The notes under the pieces are model-generated. The model worked only from the letters and a program-made list of their open reading frames with translations. It searched no databases and was not told the DNA's origin. This document shows positions 1-14,632 of a stretch of DNA of 36,114 nucleotides, one piece after another. How positions within the stretch are numbered: position 1 is the stretch's first letter; every line of letters begins with the position of its first letter. This DNA is from an uncultured Clostridia bacterium. GTDB taxonomy: Bacteria; Bacillota; Clostridia; Oscillospirales; Ruminococcaceae. The translations under genes and the position numbers were made by a program. The stretch covers positions 1 through 36,114 of the forward strand of contig CANRLY010000002.1 in NCBI GenBank assembly GCA_947631585.1, written 5' to 3'.

Positions 1-8
1 CCAGGGGA

Positions 9-690
9 AAGAGCTATTAGAGGTAAGAAGTTAGAGGTTAGAAAACCCACCCCCTAACGGCTAACGCCGTTTTCCCCCTCCCCAGTTTGGGAGGGGGATT
101 TTCGAACATCACAACAACATAATAGTAAATCGGGTGCATCACACCTTTTGAAAAATTATACCCACCCCCTTGACAGCTTCGCTGTCATTCCCCCTCCCCA
201 GTTTGGGGAGGGGGGTTCGGGCGGCTTCGCCGCCCTACTGGAAGCTAGAAGTTCCACAACCGATGGAGATAACACGCAGTTGCCAGCCTAAAATGAAAAC
301 CCCACCCCCTAACGGCTAACGCCGTTTTCCCCCTCCCCAAACTGGGGAGGGGGATTTTTATGCGGCGGCAAAGCCGCCGTCTTTTATCTCTTGCTTCTTA
401 TTTTCTTGCCTCTAGCGGCTGAGGCAAGAGGCAAGAGCTATTAGAGGTTAGAAGTTAGAGGTAAGAGGTAAGAAGCCCCAACCCCTGCTAGAGGCAAGAG
501 GCAAGAAGCCCCACCCCCCTTGACAGCTTCGCTGTCATTCCCCCTCCCCAGTTTGGGGAGGGGGGTTCGGGCGGCTTCGCCGCCCTGCTGGAATCTAGAA
601 GTTCCACAACCGATGGAAACAACACGCAGTGCCAGCCTAAAATGAAAACCGCCACCCCCTAACGGCTAACGCCGTTTTCCCCTAAAAATG
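9..690. repeat. Cluster of intergenic palindromic repeats: five copies or fragments of a C-rich element (about 45-108, 161-236, 301-379, 520-586, 652-682) within larger direct duplications, interspersed with purine-rich 'ttagaggtaagaag' repeats
   Basis: Repeated CCCACCCCCT + hairpin (AACGGC-TAAC-GCCGTT or GACAGC-TTC-GCTGTC) + CCCCCTCCCC-N5-GGGGAGGGGG + third hairpin (GGGCGGC-TTC-GCCGCCC or CGGCGGC-AAA-GCCGCCG). Segment 161-331 recurs at about 521-681 (offset near 360), including 'tctagaagttccacaaccgatgga' flank. Confidence 0.9.
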
Positions 691-987
691 GTGAGGCGAA
701 TGTTGCAAACAGCCTAGTAATGAAATTGCATTTCCCTATGCCTTTTGAGAGTACAGGGTTGTTTGTTTGTCAATAGGAATTGTTTGGATTATAACTCCAC
801 ACATATAAACCCGCCACTTGTTCCCATGCTTGCATTACATCTAAATAAGATCCCTATCATAATTCTGCTCTTAATTACAACAATTGGCAATAATATATAT
901 TTATATATTAATACTGACAATATATTGTCGAATTATATCTAATAGAAAAAATAATTGCCATATACTGTCTGACTTTAATAATATGGG

Positions 988-1284: not shown

Positions 1285-4200
1285 ATGATTTACATTCATA
1301 TCAAAGATAAAGACTTTTCTATATGGTCTGAATTTGAAGAATGGGTCAAATTCTGTTCTGATGATTGTATTGAATTTAACGTTCGAATTGACAGTAGTTC
1401 TAATTTTGATGAACTTCGAGGTCTTCGCAACGCAGCGGATCTTATCGCAGAGGCAAACAAAAGATTTATAATGCAAATTCAAATCGGCGGAAATAAATCT
1501 GTGGAAAATATTAATAGAATTTATAAAGCTATTGGTGATTTTGGCATTATTTATGCCGATCCTATACATAAAACGATTTATTTCTGTTCTGATACTTCTT
1601 TTTTAGCTCAAGAAGAGAACACTATGGATCAGTCTGTTGTTGAAAAAGTTAAAGAATCGCTTGTTAATCACGGCATAAGCGATTCGTCGGCATTGAAAAT
1701 ATGCAGATTTCTTAGAACTGCAAAAATGCGCACAATAAACGATGACAACAACGACGTGCATGCGCTTCAAAAGCGAGAGTTTTGCTTTATTCCCATAAAA
1801 GAAAATCAGTCCGACGAAATTGAGCGGGACCTTAAATATCCGGACATAATCTTTAATTATATTAACAATATAAATTTTGCATTGCTATCAATCAGTCGTT
1901 CTGTTCATTATGATATTTCATACAAAGTATTTGTTGACATTGAAAAAACTGTTATAAGCGTTTCAAAAAATACACGAACCGGTTGGCAAAATGCATTCGA
2001 ACTATATAAACACAAAAATGACTTTTTGAGAAATTTTTATACTGAATTTAAATTTAATGTTGAACTTCAACGTGATGATTTCAGCGATAAAACCGACGTT
2101 ACCAATCTTAGATTCTTTTATCCGTTAAATAAGCTAGACGAAAGATGCGTTATGAACGTTATCACTGACGACTTGGCTGATTTAAATAGAGCATATCAGT
2201 TTTGCACAAAATGCCCAAATGCCGTTTTAATAAATAATAGTCAACACAGTAAGCAAAGTGCCGTGTCAGATATTTTTCCGATAATAAAAATAGATAACAG
2301 TAACAACATTATGCACCCTATTGATGAATCAGATGCTTTAAAAGAGCAGATCAGCGACTATGAATCATATTTTACAATAGGGCATTCTAAAGATACTGAA
2401 TCGATTATAAGAATGAAGAACGAGGCGTATAATATACTTATTAAGTATAAAAATAGTATGCCTGCGCTGACATATCTAATGCTTATTTATCTTCTTCGCT
2501 TTTATATCGGAACTGAGAAAAGCGATACCATAAGCGAAAGCACCCTCGTTAAAATAATTACCGATGCCGAGTCGTACTCCGAAGGATTTTATCAGATAAT
2601 TGAGAACTCCTGCCTTCATTCTCATGGCCATTGCGCTTACTTTTCAATGAGGATCCATAAGGCAAATCGCAACGCAACTATGTCAGTTTTTGAAAAAGAG
2701 CAAAAAACCAGGCAAATGCTGTATGATAAATACTCCGAAAAGCGAAAGGTCAACAATATATTTAATAGTCTTAAGTACAATTATTATATTGAATTTTTCG
2801 TTATAGACTGTGCTGTGAGCGGCAACAATGAAATTGATGGGATTCTTGATACGTTCAACAGGGTTAACGAACAAAAGGTCGCAAGTATAGAAGATCTTAT
2901 TACGCTTACCGAAGAAATGTCTTTCGACAAAGAGAAATATTACACCGAGCATTACGGACTTAGATGGTTTGAAAAGATAATTGATAAGAATCATGGGATC
3001 ATTCACATTTTTTCACCGTTTAAAAGTGGAAAGGAAACGTCGTTATATGTAAGTAGTAATGGAAAAATCGAAGAAAATTCATATCGTAGCGGTAGCATAT
3101 ATTTTACCGAATACAACGTCGTTGTTCCAATGTTATATGCTTTCGAGGGTCAAGATGCAAAAGCGAAGCCAACAAAATGCAAAATAAAGATGTTAGACAG
3201 GCCGGATATTGAATTTAAACCATTAGCGCCGAAAGCGGTTACTAAGATTGACGGTTTATATAATCTCGAAAAAAAGTCAGATAAAATAGAGTGCATTCAT
3301 AATGAATTAAAAGGGTTATTGAAAGAGAGCAACAGCATATTGCAGATTGACTGCACTGATATGCCGTTCGACATGGTTGAGATTACTGCAAAGGCCATTT
3401 TTAAGTCGATATACGAAAAAAGAAAAGTCAAAAAAAATATGCCGATATATATTTCCATAGATTTTGGAGCATATAAAGAGCGGATTTCAGAATTTGTAAG
3501 AATATTTTCTATATTTTATGATAAATCCGGCGACAATGGTTATATGAATAATGTTCAGATAGCACTCTGCGGCAATGATGAAATATATAAAATTAAAAAG
3601 GTCTACTTCATAATTGCCGGCAAGAATCTTAGGTCAGCATATGAGACTGCATTAAAGCTGTTCTATTATGATTCATACTATATGGCGGAAAATATGTATG
3701 TTTTAGACTATCTCGCAGACGGCAAAAATGGCAATAAATCAAAAGTGAAAAGCAAAATCGATGAGGAACTGCAAATTTTGCCTTTTGATATTTACTTGCC
3801 GCAAAACCGTAACAGTTGGTTCTTAAAGCATATGTCCGCTATACTCAATACAAAGATCGAGGAAGCGAATAACGGCTGCAAGATAGAGAACACTCATGTC
3901 AGAATCAGTTCAAGGATCCATCTTGAGGATTTTTACGAAGCAGAGCATCTTTTCCACAATGAAGGAAATGTATACCGGTTTGCAATGTTAATTTCAAAGG
4001 AAATTATTTCCTCACATCAAGAAAATAAAAATATGCTCATCGTAGGATATGAAAACTATTCTTCAATACTGATAAATCTTATACAAAGTCTTGTACAAAA
4101 CGTTTATAAAAGCAATAAAATGCGAGTAAACGTTTGCTCGGCGATCTCAACAACTAACGAATCAGGCATAAATGACATTGTAACAATGAATATGCCAAAA

Positions 4201-6495
4201 TTAGACGATAATGATAAGTTGTATGTATATACCGTAATACCCATTGGCACCACTATGTCGACGATTTATAAAATTCACAATATCGTAAGAAATAAATTTG
4301 AAAATAATTTTATTGTGGAATTCAAGAATAACTATTCAATCATTGCGGTAAGCGACTATCTTGCGAATCCATATTCCGCCAATACTGACAATATGCTTCT
4401 TCGCAGATACTGGGACATAGACAGGATGACTAAGGACAGCTATGAAATAATTCTGCAAAAGGAAATTTCTGATGAATGTGATGCGGATAGCAGGGACACA
4501 AAGGTTAAATATTATCTTGCCGCATACTCTAAATGGCACGATCCAGAAAACTGTGTTCTGTGTAAGAACGCCATTCCACTCATACAGGTTGATAAGACCT
4601 CGACCATACCCTCTACAATTATTATATCAGAAAAGAACAACGAAAGGCACTCTGAACAATTTAACCTGCTAAAGGCTTCTCAGAGTAAGCTTTCAGAACT
4701 TGCTCCAGAATTTAAGTCTTATGGCAAGAACATAATTTATGTTAATTATTCTCATACTGTTCGTGGCGAAAATCATTATCAGTTTTATTTTGACTTTCAA
4801 AAACTCCTGTCGGAAAAGCGCAAATTCATAGAAGATTGGCTTAAACAAATAACGATTGACAATACTGCGTACAGCATATTGGTTTCACCGTTAAACGCTA
4901 CTAACCCAATGTTTTTAAGCCTTCTGATGAACAAGGTATTCTCGTCGGGCGTAAGATTTCTTCACGCAGATATCAACAGCACACTAAAAGAGAACATAAA
5001 GGTAAGATATAGCTATATAGCGGAAGAAATTAAAGAGCTAAAAAAAGTAAATCCAAAGGCGAAGATAAACGTATATTACGCTGACGACTCCATGGTTTCT
5101 GGAAGAACAGCCGAAAGAGGCAAGATGTTTGTGAAGATGCTGCTTGACGATGCCAAAATAAGCATGGACGGAGTATCACTATATAAGAAAATATTCCTGT
5201 TGATAAACCGCAATTCATATGAAACAATGAGTTCTTTAACAGAAAACCCTTTAGAAAACGTTCATTCATATATCTGGCTCAGTCTACCGTCATATAACAC
5301 AAACAATGGCATCTGTCCTAGCTGTGAGGTTCAAAATCAGTTTGAATTGCTAAAAAAACGTTCGGCGACAGTTAGAACAGCAAGAGAATTTGCACGGCTT
5401 CAGCGTAAGCACGAAAAACGTACACCGGAGGAATATGAGGTTTGGCTTGAGAATGAAATTCTCAATACTCATGCATACTTTGCGTGGCTTAAACTTTGGT
5501 TGTTCTATAACGCAGAGTCTTTTGATAATAAGAATAAAACAGATTTTAAGTCATTATGTGATAGAATAGTCAACTTCGTAAAAACCGATGTCGAGAAGAA
5601 GATCCAAGCCAAAAACAAATACCAGGATTTTAATTTCTTTAAACTTTTTGAAAGCAAGGGATTAAATGACGAAATAAAGGACGAATATCTGAATGCGTTG
5701 TCCAAACATTCTCTCAATGACTTTTTGGAATATTGCGGCGATGACAGCTTAAAAGAAAAACTAGTCGGGCTGATGCGATATATCGTCGCCGAGCGAGCTC
5801 ATCTTCGTTTGACCACTATGAACGAGGCATATCTTAAACTTCATAATGTTCGCTCTGAACACAACCGTGAAGATAACCCCTATATTTGCAACCTTCTGAC
5901 TGATTTTCTCAAAATAGGTAGAAATGATAATTCCGATCCGCAGATTTACCTGCGCTTTGAAACAACGGAATCCGCCATTAAGGTTATTTCGCGCGACCTG
6001 CTTGGCAAATACTTCCATGTCAGAAGCGAGATACTTGATGAAATGAAAAATATCGTCATGATTCTTGCAGGAGATATGCATCCTGAGAATGGCTTTGATT
6101 TTCTGCACAGCAGCATCGACGATAAGAGCGTCAGCCAAAAGTTTAAGAACCCTTGCGCAGCGCTTCAATACCAGTTGTTCATGGCAGTCATTCATAGAAT
6201 GGCGATGTTACGAACAAATATCATTTACATAGAAGAATTTATGGATAAGTTTGTATGCGCTTATAACCGTCTCAGGGATAAATACTTTTTCTGCAAAGAA
6301 TACTCCGATGTCCAAAATGCTCTGAGTAAAAAAGAAAAAACCGATCTGCTCTGTCTTACAGAAATTCCAAGTTCTGATAAAGTGGCAGAAAAATATATGT
6401 GCTCCGTCAAAGCGGCATCTATGCTGACCGACGATGACAGCGCTTGCTTTGCTTTGCTTAAAAGTTACAAAAAAGAGGTGAGCAGTGATGAATAA
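1285..6495 (+). CDS. Large multidomain protein: GHKL/HATPase-like ATPase region plus two tandem phosphoribosyltransferase-like modules
   Basis: RBS AAGGAG at 1274-1279 and ATG at 1285. N-box-like QIIENSCLHSHGHC (about nt 2590), D-x-x-x-S-G-like VIDCAVSGNN (about 2797), YGLRWFEKIIDKNHGIIHIFS (G2-box-like, about 2950). PRTase loop-like YVYTVIPIGTTMST (about 4228) and INVYYADDSMVSGRTAERGK (about 5065), each followed by CVLC or CPSC. Confidence 0.8.
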   Translation: MIYIHIKDKDFSIWSEFEEWVKFCSDDCIEFNVRIDSSSNFDELRGLRNAADLIAEANKRFIMQIQIGGNKSVENINRIYKAIGDFGIIYADPIHKTIYFCSDTSFLAQEENTMDQSVVEKVKESLVNHGISDSSALKICRFLRTAKMRTINDDNNDVHALQKREFCFIPIKENQSDEIERDLKYPDIIFNYINNINFALLSISRSVHYDISYKVFVDIEKTVISVSKNTRTGWQNAFELYKHKNDFLRNFYTEFKFNVELQRDDFSDKTDVTNLRFFYPLNKLDERCVMNVITDDLADLNRAYQFCTKCPNAVLINNSQHSKQSAVSDIFPIIKIDNSNNIMHPIDESDALKEQISDYESYFTIGHSKDTESIIRMKNEAYNILIKYKNSMPALTYLMLIYLLRFYIGTEKSDTISESTLVKIITDAESYSEGFYQIIENSCLHSHGHCAYFSMRIHKANRNATMSVFEKEQKTRQMLYDKYSEKRKVNNIFNSLKYNYYIEFFVIDCAVSGNNEIDGILDTFNRVNEQKVASIEDLITLTEEMSFDKEKYYTEHYGLRWFEKIIDKNHGIIHIFSPFKSGKETSLYVSSNGKIEENSYRSGSIYFTEYNVVVPMLYAFEGQDAKAKPTKCKIKMLDRPDIEFKPLAPKAVTKIDGLYNLEKKSDKIECIHNELKGLLKESNSILQIDCTDMPFDMVEITAKAIFKSIYEKRKVKKNMPIYISIDFGAYKERISEFVRIFSIFYDKSGDNGYMNNVQIALCGNDEIYKIKKVYFIIAGKNLRSAYETALKLFYYDSYYMAENMYVLDYLADGKNGNKSKVKSKIDEELQILPFDIYLPQNRNSWFLKHMSAILNTKIEEANNGCKIENTHVRISSRIHLEDFYEAEHLFHNEGNVYRFAMLISKEIISSHQENKNMLIVGYENYSSILINLIQSLVQNVYKSNKMRVNVCSAISTTNESGINDIVTMNMPKLDDNDKLYVYTVIPIGTTMSTIYKIHNIVRNKFENNFIVEFKNNYSIIAVSDYLANPYSANTDNMLLRRYWDIDRMTKDSYEIILQKEISDECDADSRDTKVKYYLAAYSKWHDPENCVLCKNAIPLIQVDKTSTIPSTIIISEKNNERHSEQFNLLKASQSKLSELAPEFKSYGKNIIYVNYSHTVRGENHYQFYFDFQKLLSEKRKFIEDWLKQITIDNTAYSILVSPLNATNPMFLSLLMNKVFSSGVRFLHADINSTLKENIKVRYSYIAEEIKELKKVNPKAKINVYYADDSMVSGRTAERGKMFVKMLLDDAKISMDGVSLYKKIFLLINRNSYETMSSLTENPLENVHSYIWLSLPSYNTNNGICPSCEVQNQFELLKKRSATVRTAREFARLQRKHEKRTPEEYEVWLENEILNTHAYFAWLKLWLFYNAESFDNKNKTDFKSLCDRIVNFVKTDVEKKIQAKNKYQDFNFFKLFESKGLNDEIKDEYLNALSKHSLNDFLEYCGDDSLKEKLVGLMRYIVAERAHLRLTTMNEAYLKLHNVRSEHNREDNPYICNLLTDFLKIGRNDNSDPQIYLRFETTESAIKVISRDLLGKYFHVRSEILDEMKNIVMILAGDMHPENGFDFLHSSIDDKSVSQKFKNPCAALQYQLFMAVIHRMAMLRTNIIYIEEFMDKFVCAYNRLRDKYFFCKEYSDVQNALSKKEKTDLLCLTEIPSSDKVAEKYMCSVKAASMLTDDDSACFALLKSYKKEVSSDE

Positions 6496-12050: not shown

Positions 12051-14333
12051 CTACTCTATGCTGTACGTTTTGCCTTTTTCGGTCTCGAACGTGCAAACGC
12101 CGTTTTCCAGCCTGACCGGAACGTTCTCACCGGCGCATTTAACACTCAGCAGCTCATCGCTCACTACATGGCAGGTCTCGCCGCAAAGAGATAAGATCTC
12201 CGCTTTGACCGGTTTTCCGCCTTTCCAGCTTGCGCTTACAGAAAATCCTCCCCGTGCCCTGAGACCCTGAAAACTTCCCTCCGACCACTGCGGCGGAATT
12301 GCTCCCAGCAGTCTCAGCTCACCGCAGGAACTCTGTATCAGCGCTTCCGCTATTCCGGCTGCGCCGCCGAAATTTCCGTCTATCTGGAACGGCGGGTGCA
12401 TATCGAACATATTTATGCTGGTGGAATTTGACAGCAGTGCGGAAATGTTCTCTCCGACCTTTTCGCCGTCAAGCAGCCTTGCCCAGTGGTTGATTATCCA
12501 CGCCCTCGACCAGCCGGTATGACCTCCTCCGTGGGAAAGCCTGCGCTCCAGTGTGGCTCTGGCAGCGGCGGCAAGCTCCGGCGTTCTGCGGGGAGATATC
12601 ATGTCCGCCGGATACAGGGCAAATAGCTGGGAAATGTGCCTGTGTCCCGGCTCTACTTCGTCGTAGTCCTCCGCCCACTCCATTATCTGACCGTACTTTC
12701 CTATTTCCGGCTTGGGAAGCCTTTCCCGGATATCCTCAAGCTTTTGGCAGAACTCCCGGTCTCTGCCTAAGACAGCACCCGACTGTATCACCGCCGTGAA
12801 AAGCTCGTGAAGTATCTGGCTGTCCATGGACGACCCTGCGCAGACAGAACCCTGCGTTCCGCTGCCGGTAAGGTAAGTGTTTTCCGGCGAGACAGACGGA
12901 CAGGTCACCAGCCTGCCTTTTTTGTCCTCGATAAGAAAATCAACGAAAAATTCTGCGGCTTCTTTCAAAGTATCAAATTTTTCTGCAAGAAACTCTTTAT
13001 CAAGGGTGAATTTGTAATGTTCCCAGATATGCAGACAAAGCCACGCCGCACCCATAGGCCACTGAGTTCCCGGCATCCACAAGTCCTGAGGGGCGGTATC
13101 TCCCCAGAGATCGGTGTTATGGTGGCACATAAAGCCTGAGCAGCCGTACATTTTTCTGGCGGTCTCCCTGCCGGAGGGACGCATCTTCTCGATCAGGTCG
13201 AACAGCGGCTGGTGCAGTTCTGAAAATCCCCAGATCTCCGCCGGCCAGTAGTTCATTTCGGTATTAATGTTTATTGTGAATTTGCAGCCCCACGCAGGCC
13301 AGGGTCTGTCGTTCCAAATGCCCTGTAGGTTCAGTGGGAGCGTGCCGGGTCTGCTGCCGGATATCATCAGGTATTTCCCGAAATTAAAGTACAGTTCGGC
13401 AAGCTTGTTATCCTCTCCGCCGTTCCTGACATTTTCAAGTCTTTTGTCGGTAGGAAGTCCGGCACTGCCGCCGCTGTTGTCGCACAGGTCCAGCCTGCAC
13501 CTGTCATAAAAGCTGCGGTAGTCGGCGATATGGGCTTTTTTCACATCTTCATAATTTTTTGCCAGAACTTTCTCAGCGTCCTTTAAGCAAAGTTCCTTAT
13601 GGTCTTTATGGCGGTAGCTGGTACGGCAGGTCACGGCAACGGTCACCTGGTCGCAGCCTGTGCAGACCAGCGAACTGCCGTAAGCCTTTACTTTTCCGCC
13701 CTTGCTTCTGACCATTACAGCAGAAGAGAAGCAAAGGCTGCCCTCTCCGCCCATTCCTCCGTTATAGAAGATGGTATCGTCTTTCACCGGAGCATTGAAG
13801 TCGTAGTAATCGTCTCTGCCGTCGTTCATGAAGATCTTCAGGTCAACGCTTTTTTCCTTGTCGGCAGAAATATTGACCAGCACCGCCTCGTCCGGGCAGG
13901 AAGCAATTATCTCTCTGGTGAACCTGACTCCTCCGGCGGTGAACTCCGTTTTGCACACCGCCTGTGAAATATCCAGGCTCCGTCTATAGTCTGTGACTTC
14001 TCCCCTGTCAGGCGACTGTATCACCAGTTCCCCCAGGAGCATATAATGCCGCTGATTTACAGGCGTGCCGCAAAAAGCGTCCCTGACGATCTCTTCAGCT
14101 TCCGGTATCTTCTCATCAAGCAGAAGTTCCCTTACCTTTTGCAGGTTTTCAAAAGCTGACGGGTTCACTCTATCCCTTGGCCCTCCCGACCAGATGGAAT
14201 CTTCATTGAGCCAGATATGCTCGTCATAAGTCCCCCCGAAAGCCATTGCTCCCAGTCTGCCGCTTCCGGTGGGCAGCGCCTGATCCCAGTTCTCAGCCGG
14301 CTTCTCATACCACAAGATCTCCGATGTGTTCAT
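12051..14333 (-). CDS. Glycoside hydrolase family 95 alpha-L-fucosidase-like protein (no signal peptide seen)
   Basis: LWYEKPAENWDQALPTGSGRLGAMAFGGTYDEHIWLNEDSIWSGGP, NLQGIWNDRPWPAWGCKFTININTEMNYWPAE, HHNTDLWGDTAPQD, MHPPFQIDGNFGGAAGIAEALIQS. Confidence 0.93.
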   Translation of the reverse strand: MNTSEILWYEKPAENWDQALPTGSGRLGAMAFGGTYDEHIWLNEDSIWSGGPRDRVNPSAFENLQKVRELLLDEKIPEAEEIVRDAFCGTPVNQRHYMLLGELVIQSPDRGEVTDYRRSLDISQAVCKTEFTAGGVRFTREIIASCPDEAVLVNISADKEKSVDLKIFMNDGRDDYYDFNAPVKDDTIFYNGGMGGEGSLCFSSAVMVRSKGGKVKAYGSSLVCTGCDQVTVAVTCRTSYRHKDHKELCLKDAEKVLAKNYEDVKKAHIADYRSFYDRCRLDLCDNSGGSAGLPTDKRLENVRNGGEDNKLAELYFNFGKYLMISGSRPGTLPLNLQGIWNDRPWPAWGCKFTININTEMNYWPAEIWGFSELHQPLFDLIEKMRPSGRETARKMYGCSGFMCHHNTDLWGDTAPQDLWMPGTQWPMGAAWLCLHIWEHYKFTLDKEFLAEKFDTLKEAAEFFVDFLIEDKKGRLVTCPSVSPENTYLTGSGTQGSVCAGSSMDSQILHELFTAVIQSGAVLGRDREFCQKLEDIRERLPKPEIGKYGQIMEWAEDYDEVEPGHRHISQLFALYPADMISPRRTPELAAAARATLERRLSHGGGHTGWSRAWIINHWARLLDGEKVGENISALLSNSTSINMFDMHPPFQIDGNFGGAAGIAEALIQSSCGELRLLGAIPPQWSEGSFQGLRARGGFSVSASWKGGKPVKAEILSLCGETCHVVSDELLSVKCAGENVPVRLENGVCTFETEKGKTYSIE

Positions 14334-14371: not shown

Positions 14372-14478
14372 GCCGCAGGGCGGCTGCCGGCGGGCTTCGC
14401 CCGCCGGCTCAGCGTCTGGAAGGCGCTGCCTTCCAGACGCTCCAGCGGAGCAAAGCTCCGCTGGAGCCGCCCTGCGGC
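14372..14478. repeat. Perfect composite palindrome: 14-bp closing stem enclosing three triloop hairpins (potential four-way junction)
   Basis: GCCGCAGGGCGGCT (14372-14385) pairs with AGCCGCCCTGCGGC (14465-14478). Inside: GCCGGCGGGC-TTC-GCCCGCCGGC (14386-14408), AGCGTCTGGAAGGC-GCT-GCCTTCCAGACGCT (14411-14441), CCAGCGGAGC-AAA-GCTCCGCTGG (14442-14464). Confidence 0.95.
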
Positions 14479-14603
14479 ATCGCTGAAAGAGCCGTATAAG
14501 CTGCTGAAACAATGATAGCATAAAGAGAAAAAGATTTCAAGGAGAAAAAGGCATAAAACAACACAATACACAAAAATGTCATGAAAAAAATGGGTTTTTG
14601 CTA

Positions 14604-14632
14604 TTTACAAATTTAAGGTTGTGTGATAGAAT
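14604..14632 (+). promoter_or_regulatory. Candidate sigma-A promoter for nifJ: TTTACA - 17 nt - TAGAAT
   Basis: TTTACA 14604-14609, 17-nt spacer, TAGAAT 14627-14632. Confidence 0.6.

Follow-up and report, generated by a model that had tools for sequence, protein, structure and literature searches.

The GH95 leader and the element within it

The window, by which we mean the whole analysed stretch of 36,114 nucleotides, is contig C2 of assembly G000, which totals 1.79 Mb in 215 contigs and is 82% complete. A 107-nt element lies between a minus-strand GH95 glycosidase gene and, as its right-hand neighbour, a plus-strand gene encoding pyruvate:ferredoxin oxidoreductase (PFOR). In brief, the region is laid out as follows.

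12051-14333, minus strand: GH95 glycosidase gene, a neighbour outside the element (Pfam PF22124, E 4e-175)
14372-14385, no strand assigned: left arm of the closing stem, 14 bp with the right arm, GCCGCAGGGCGGCT (direct reading and fold)
14386-14408, no strand assigned: hairpin 1, 10 bp, loop TTC (direct reading and fold)
14409-14410, no strand assigned: TC, the sole unpaired junction bases (fold and family comparison)
14411-14441, no strand assigned: hairpin 2, 14 bp, loop GCT (direct reading and fold)
14442-14464, no strand assigned: hairpin 3, 10 bp, loop AAA (direct reading and fold)
14465-14478, no strand assigned: right arm of the closing stem, AGCCGCCCTGCGGC (direct reading and fold)
14512-14540, minus strand: promoter-like site of GH95, TTGAAA-17-TATCAT (sequence-pattern match)
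14604-14632, plus strand: promoter-like site before the neighbouring PFOR gene, TTTACA-17-TAGAAT (sequence-pattern match)

Read directly from the sequence, positions 14372-14478 form a perfect four-way junction of 107 nt, in which all four stems consist of Watson-Crick pairs only. The preliminary description of this DNA, which had reported a 14-bp closing stem around triloop hairpins of 10, 14 and 10 bp with only TC unpaired, proved exact, as did its placement of the element 38 bp upstream of the GH95 start (start codon at 14333, minus strand). It had also called for RNA folding: the segment 14352-14498 folds at -112.5 kcal/mol (z = -11.5), a value equalled by none of 200 shuffles. Folding the other strand of the element as DNA gave -66.1 (z = -12.4).

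The two promoter-like sites, at 14512-14540 (-) and 14604-14632 (+), would put the element within the leader that is transcribed with GH95, outside that of the PFOR gene. A similar arrangement, TTGATA-17-TATTAT, was read by eye in the syntenic leader of the congener G001. We found no terminator-like site and no T-tract between 14300 and 14760. An Rfam search returned no match at the gathering cut-off, and at a loose threshold gave only sub-threshold matches of the kind expected by chance. At its own locus, in the GH95 leader, the element most likely travels as a passenger, and it may be tolerated there since the folded part does not include the ribosome-binding site.

Elsewhere, the window holds spore germination genes, which suggest a spore-former of the Clostridia type as the host. 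The plus strand at 1285-6495 holds an open reading frame of 1736 aa to which Pfam gave no match; after it comes a 776-aa protein that has a metallophosphoesterase domain.

A family of cloverleafs that share a shape

The genome-wide search for the 107-mer that had been proposed along with the preliminary description gave no further sequence copy; a family became visible by shape instead. BLAST found no second copy in the assembly itself and no convincing copy in 59 relatives, and a search of phages and plasmids gave none either.

For the search by shape we scanned 868 kb, about half of the assembly. A script that finds adjacent perfect hairpins inside a common closing stem detected 15 three-hairpin junctions within the first 664 kb, rising to 25 over the full 868 kb, and none in mononucleotide-shuffled sequence. 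An independent scan by ViennaRNA local folding, with G-U pairs allowed and a threshold of -60 kcal/mol or better, detected 33 three-branch junctions in the same 868 kb, next to three others, of which one was two-branched, one four-branched and one five-branched (three-branch junctions thus making up 33/36). A Markov-2 imitation of the same contigs, also 868 kb, contained no junction at or below -60 kcal/mol, which bears out the earlier judgement that the palindrome is far too perfect for chance. Eight of the scanned contigs had been picked for earlier hits; leaving them out, there are 26 junctions in 815 kb, extrapolating to about 57 per assembly.

The 33 three-branch junctions, which we call cloverleafs, are 88-133 bp long and have 73.6% GC, compared with 47.5% for the genome. 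Triloops cap 81 of their 99 hairpins. Their 1506 pairs include 31 G-U pairs and 19 mismatches or bulges, that is, the homogenised arms of a template-switch inverted repeat, although the low share of G-U is partly a product of selection, since the scans favoured well-paired junctions even where ViennaRNA allowed G-U. The linkers at the junction are short; most commonly there are 2 nt between two hairpins and 0 or 1 elsewhere, a form to which eight sequence-related copies contribute. A strong polarity of the 2-nt linker is seen in about half of the non-homologous cloverleafs, and we therefore take it as a tendency only. Hairpin modules recur both free-standing and within cloverleafs, and single hairpins are abundant in the genome.

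By simple ORF calling, 12 of the 33 lie between tandem genes, 10 between divergent genes, 7 between convergent genes and 4 at contig ends; in a few cases there is overlap with the end of a gene or with a short ORF of doubtful standing. Some of the gaps are very tight: one cloverleaf has convergent genes at distances of 12 and 6 bp, another tandem genes at 14 and 16 bp. Placement between genes of every orientation, in some cases with so little room, fits neither a terminator nor a gene-specific leader RNA. The 15-nt flanks hold no insertion consensus, no target-site duplication (judged by eye) and no visible conserved core of the integron attC type.

Most family members are unrelated to one another in sequence. 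Unrelated cloverleafs give no meaningful alignment when submitted directly to MAFFT, and length-trimmed, gap-free elements were used instead to seed covariance models. The second of the two models, R2, recovers most members in the genome of origin, including some on which it was not trained (L155:3763, L167:8982, L065:11572 and L159:7581 among them). The 107-mer is one member of a genome-wide, shape-conserved family of intergenic cloverleafs and not an RNA device specific to GH95.

Among relatives, R2 gave no match at E 0.05 in 1.03 Mb of stretches, none at E 0.001 across 38 genomes sampled from the order, and none at E 0.01 in 38 close relatives, the last two samples overlapping; covariance searches of other genomes have limited sensitivity for a family with unrelated sequences. 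A structure scan of the congener G002, a genome of lower GC, detected a few looser four-way junctions (L079:156-266, L082:2157, L082:7697-7774 and L194:13300-13401). The family is dense in its own lineage and rare or absent in the sampled kin.

Four cloverleaf sites could be compared with syntenic sites in congeners, and all four lack the element there. The gap between GH95 and the PFOR gene is preserved in G001 without it. A gap of about 157 bp in G000 that holds a 91-bp cloverleaf (L047:8611-8701), beside a gene that we take from its sequence to be ispE, measures 11 bp between ispE and the next gene in G002. The neighbour pairs at L044:15495 and L068:6967 are preserved without a junction in G003 and G001, respectively. 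This is the presence/absence pattern of a mobile element. The congeners are distant, however (the proteins of the neighbour genes are about 52-95% identical), so that a missing element could in principle reflect loss, and the flanks have diverged too far to reveal the exact joint.

Paired arms and inverted loops in related copies

Eight sequence-related copies form one subfamily of sister elements, to which the 107-mer does not belong, and could be aligned in register. In this alignment 37 of 39 pairs are invariant, and one pair is changed on both sides, from G-C to T-A. The preliminary description had named arms left unpaired in related copies as the observation that would speak against it; in these eight sister elements the arms stay paired.

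The copies differ mainly at the hairpin tips. The loop of hairpin 1 is GAC or GTC, that of hairpin 2 is GAA (three copies) or TTC (three copies), and that of hairpin 3 is GTT (four copies) or AAC (three copies), the two forms being reverse complements in each case. Copies C74 and C172 are identical over 57 of 57 bases of the 3' flank, and within the element their sole difference is a GTT as opposed to an AAC triloop. Inversion of a spacer between otherwise unchanged arms, a mark of template switching, is hence seen in the sister elements. Across the eight copies as a group, the flanks are poorly matched (55% identity on the 5' side and 70% on the 3' side), which makes the element itself the unit of similarity. 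Loop inversion across all equal-arm hairpins was set aside as proof, as the strand cannot be fixed there.

The preliminary description had noted that the triloop hairpins echo the repeats at 1-690, and the likeness holds, both showing triloops inverted in register (GTT/AAC). The related array is:

window 1-707 (42-707), no strand assigned: array of perfect triloop hairpins, CCCCCTCCCCA-GTT/AAC-TGGGGAGGGGG and others

Here the triloop occurs in both orientations at one and the same position of the repeat unit, with GTT at 42-102 and AAC at 297-357.

Further repeats were observed. In copy C4 of the subfamily (L040:4099-4210), a palindrome of about 22 nt, TAAACGCTTGC-AAA-GCAAGCATTTA, has been added at the tip of hairpin 2. 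It resembles free-standing hairpins nearby, and this copy suggests that hairpins lengthen when sequence is inserted into their tips. A second repeat family consists of two-hairpin junctions with a closing stem GAAGAAT.../...ATTCTTC, in which a base change in the closing stem or the hairpins is matched by one in its partner from copy to copy. Its members often lie near the eight-copy subfamily, and in three cases near tRNA-like sequence:

L040:3878-3949, L063:8771-8838, L076:2779-2847, L170:6963-7034, L172:4329-4400 and others: second (two-hairpin) repeat family

In G009, a genome of the same taxonomic family that has no SbcD match, L095 (G009:C21) carries a dense hairpin array at about 5790-6190 with a period of about 166 bp.

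Proposed maintenance and spread of the cloverleafs

Template switching in yeast inverted repeats homogenises arms and has produced ten spacer inversions, among them GAA to TTC (PMC8604942), and in rRNA genes the same process has been traced through inverted loops and paired changes (PMC8794818). Perfect arms combined with loops inverted in place are this published signature, which argues for a copying process at the level of DNA and not for a switch controlling one enzyme. We consider it probable that the 107-mer belongs to a lineage-specific family of intergenic DNA cloverleafs, each a closing stem around exactly three hairpins, that is maintained by template switching. The cloverleaf would fold as DNA while single-stranded during replication, and the polymerase would switch templates between the arms, one arm being repaired from the other. 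Such repair would keep the arms perfect and the shape constant while the sequence drifts, and the same switching could invert the hairpin loops. The cloverleafs would have entered their intergenic sites by insertion, as non-autonomous DNA. There is almost no arm drift among the eight related copies, so that the case for drift with repair comes mainly from the unrelated members; likewise, as the 107-mer has no sequence relative, its own history of template switching is read from the family.

Known systems share some of these traits. REP, REPIN and BIME sequences, associated with RAYT transposases, are intergenic palindromic repeats, non-coding, present in many copies per genome and presumed non-autonomous (PMC3733652). 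The cloverleafs are likewise intergenic, palindromic, non-coding and numerous. REPs, in contrast, measure 20-40 bp, have a conserved sequence with a GTAG or CGTC tag and lie mostly downstream of genes, whereas the cloverleafs measure 88-133 bp, form four-way junctions, are not conserved in sequence and in many cases lie between divergent genes. With no copies of the 107-mer, members mostly unrelated and no consensus in the flanks, we found nothing like the conserved 20-40 bp palindrome of REP/RAYT systems. The Y1 (HUH) transposase domain PF01797 was absent from G000, at 82% completeness, and was detected in five control genomes. Integron attC sites are recognised as a folded strand and vary in sequence, and they carry conserved core sites and extrahelical bases; the cloverleafs resemble them in the former respect, but none of the latter features was seen. 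The enzymes of IS200/IS605 elements and of integrons recognise folded ends.

The double-hairpin elements of fungal mitochondria are reportedly GC-rich and variable in sequence. As summarised in PMC5910586, these elements (Paquin, Laforest and Lang 2000) are, like the cloverleafs, compact, built of several hairpins and thought to be mobile; they have two hairpins and are mitochondrial, whereas the cloverleafs enclose three hairpins in a closing stem and reside in a bacterial chromosome. The minute hairpin inversions of chloroplasts (Kelchner and Wendel 1996, as cited in PMC5910586) flip a loop in place between inverted arms, as here, but concern single hairpins in plastids. Template-switch footprints (PMC8604942, PMC8794818) match the cloverleafs in having homogenised arms and short spacers that invert (GAA to TTC among them); those footprints are events at scattered hairpins, whereas in this genome the process would preserve an entire family of composite junctions.

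Template switching accounts for the maintenance of the cloverleafs, not for their near-constant three-hairpin plan or their spread. The candidate routes to new sites are an enzyme that recognises the shape and serial accretion of single hairpins. The former, in which some enzyme of the lineage would recognise the folded junction in single-stranded DNA and insert it, leaving the sequence free and the shape fixed, is a tentative possibility. It would add a mover to the template-switching explanation without conflict with the maintenance part, and agrees with the fixed plan of exactly three hairpins joined by short linkers (often one of 2 nt between two of the hairpins), with the syntenic sites that lack the element and with related copies sitting in different flanks. 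Against it stand the search for a mobilising enzyme, which covered the Y1 transposase and gave no candidate, the lack of a target consensus and the fact that most elements have no sequence sibling, when an active transposon should leave many recent copies. Accretion, by which single hairpins would settle within or next to each other, to be made perfect afterwards by template switching, with the cloverleaf as no more than a stable end product, we hold to be unlikely. Hairpin modules found both alone and inside cloverleafs, the palindrome inserted at the hairpin 2 tip of copy C4 and the two-hairpin junctions of the other repeat family speak for it, but it predicts a broad range of branch numbers and the strong junctions are three-branched in 33 of 36 cases.

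Two other readings fare worse. That the element is a structured leader RNA controlling GH95, whether riboswitch-like, a stabiliser or an attenuator, is improbable: the same shape occurs between convergent, tandem and divergent genes, it is missing from the syntenic GH95 leader of G001, there is neither an Rfam match nor a T-run, and loop inversion is a DNA event. Its position between the GH95 promoter-like site and the start codon, where an extremely stable RNA would form, does agree with this reading, and the preliminary description's option of a structured 5' leader RNA holds to that extent, as regards position (promoter-like site at 14540-14512); as a general account it fails for a family found between genes of every orientation. 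We regard a REP/BIME-type or attC-type element, or a bidirectional terminator, as very improbable: the cloverleafs are intergenic, palindromic and repeated, but lack a common sequence, a Y1 transposase and a T-tract, and 10 of the 29 classifiable elements lie between divergent genes. The same description had further offered a mobile cruciform or REP-like element and a recombinase substrate. A mobile cruciform-like element is the best supported of its three options, given the family of the same shape and the syntenic sites without the element; a REP-like element in the strict sense is disfavoured by the lack of a Y1/RAYT transposase and of a common sequence, and the recombinase substrate found no direct evidence.

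SbcCD cleaves DNA hairpins. Searches of G000, from which 18% of the genome is missing, gave only weak matches to SbcC and SbcD, namely a 283-aa protein next to uvrC, which we take to be metallophosphoesterase-like, and a 1190-aa frame that is presumably an SMC protein. SbcD (126-162 bits) and SbcC are present in all three congeners. An absence of SbcCD, if real in a genome of which 18% is missing, would fit one so rich in palindromes. Loss of SbcCD as the sole cause was set aside: G002, which has SbcCD, contains its few looser junctions, and G009, with no SbcD match, has no such family.

We rate the cloverleaf family as belonging to a known kind, the extragenic palindromic elements. A literature search, with most subscription journals outside its coverage, found no description of such a family. 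There is a real chance of something newer if shape-only mobility can be shown. That the cloverleafs are bacterial mobile DNA recognised by shape alone is for now a doubtful proposal: a candidate enzyme would act on the folded strand, template switching would keep the arms matched, the sequence would be free for these two reasons, and the elements would perhaps be tolerated without SbcCD. The question raised is whether a DNA element can spread in bacteria on shape alone, and whether loss of SbcCD permits that spread.

Repeat families are usually found by sequence; searches of that type miss this one almost entirely, and it comes to light only by shape. It also carries a warning, in that compensatory changes in such hairpins need not imply a functional RNA. 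The cloverleafs of this lineage offer dozens of naturally occurring perfect palindromes built to a single design, and with them a way to measure arm repair and tip inversion by template switching.
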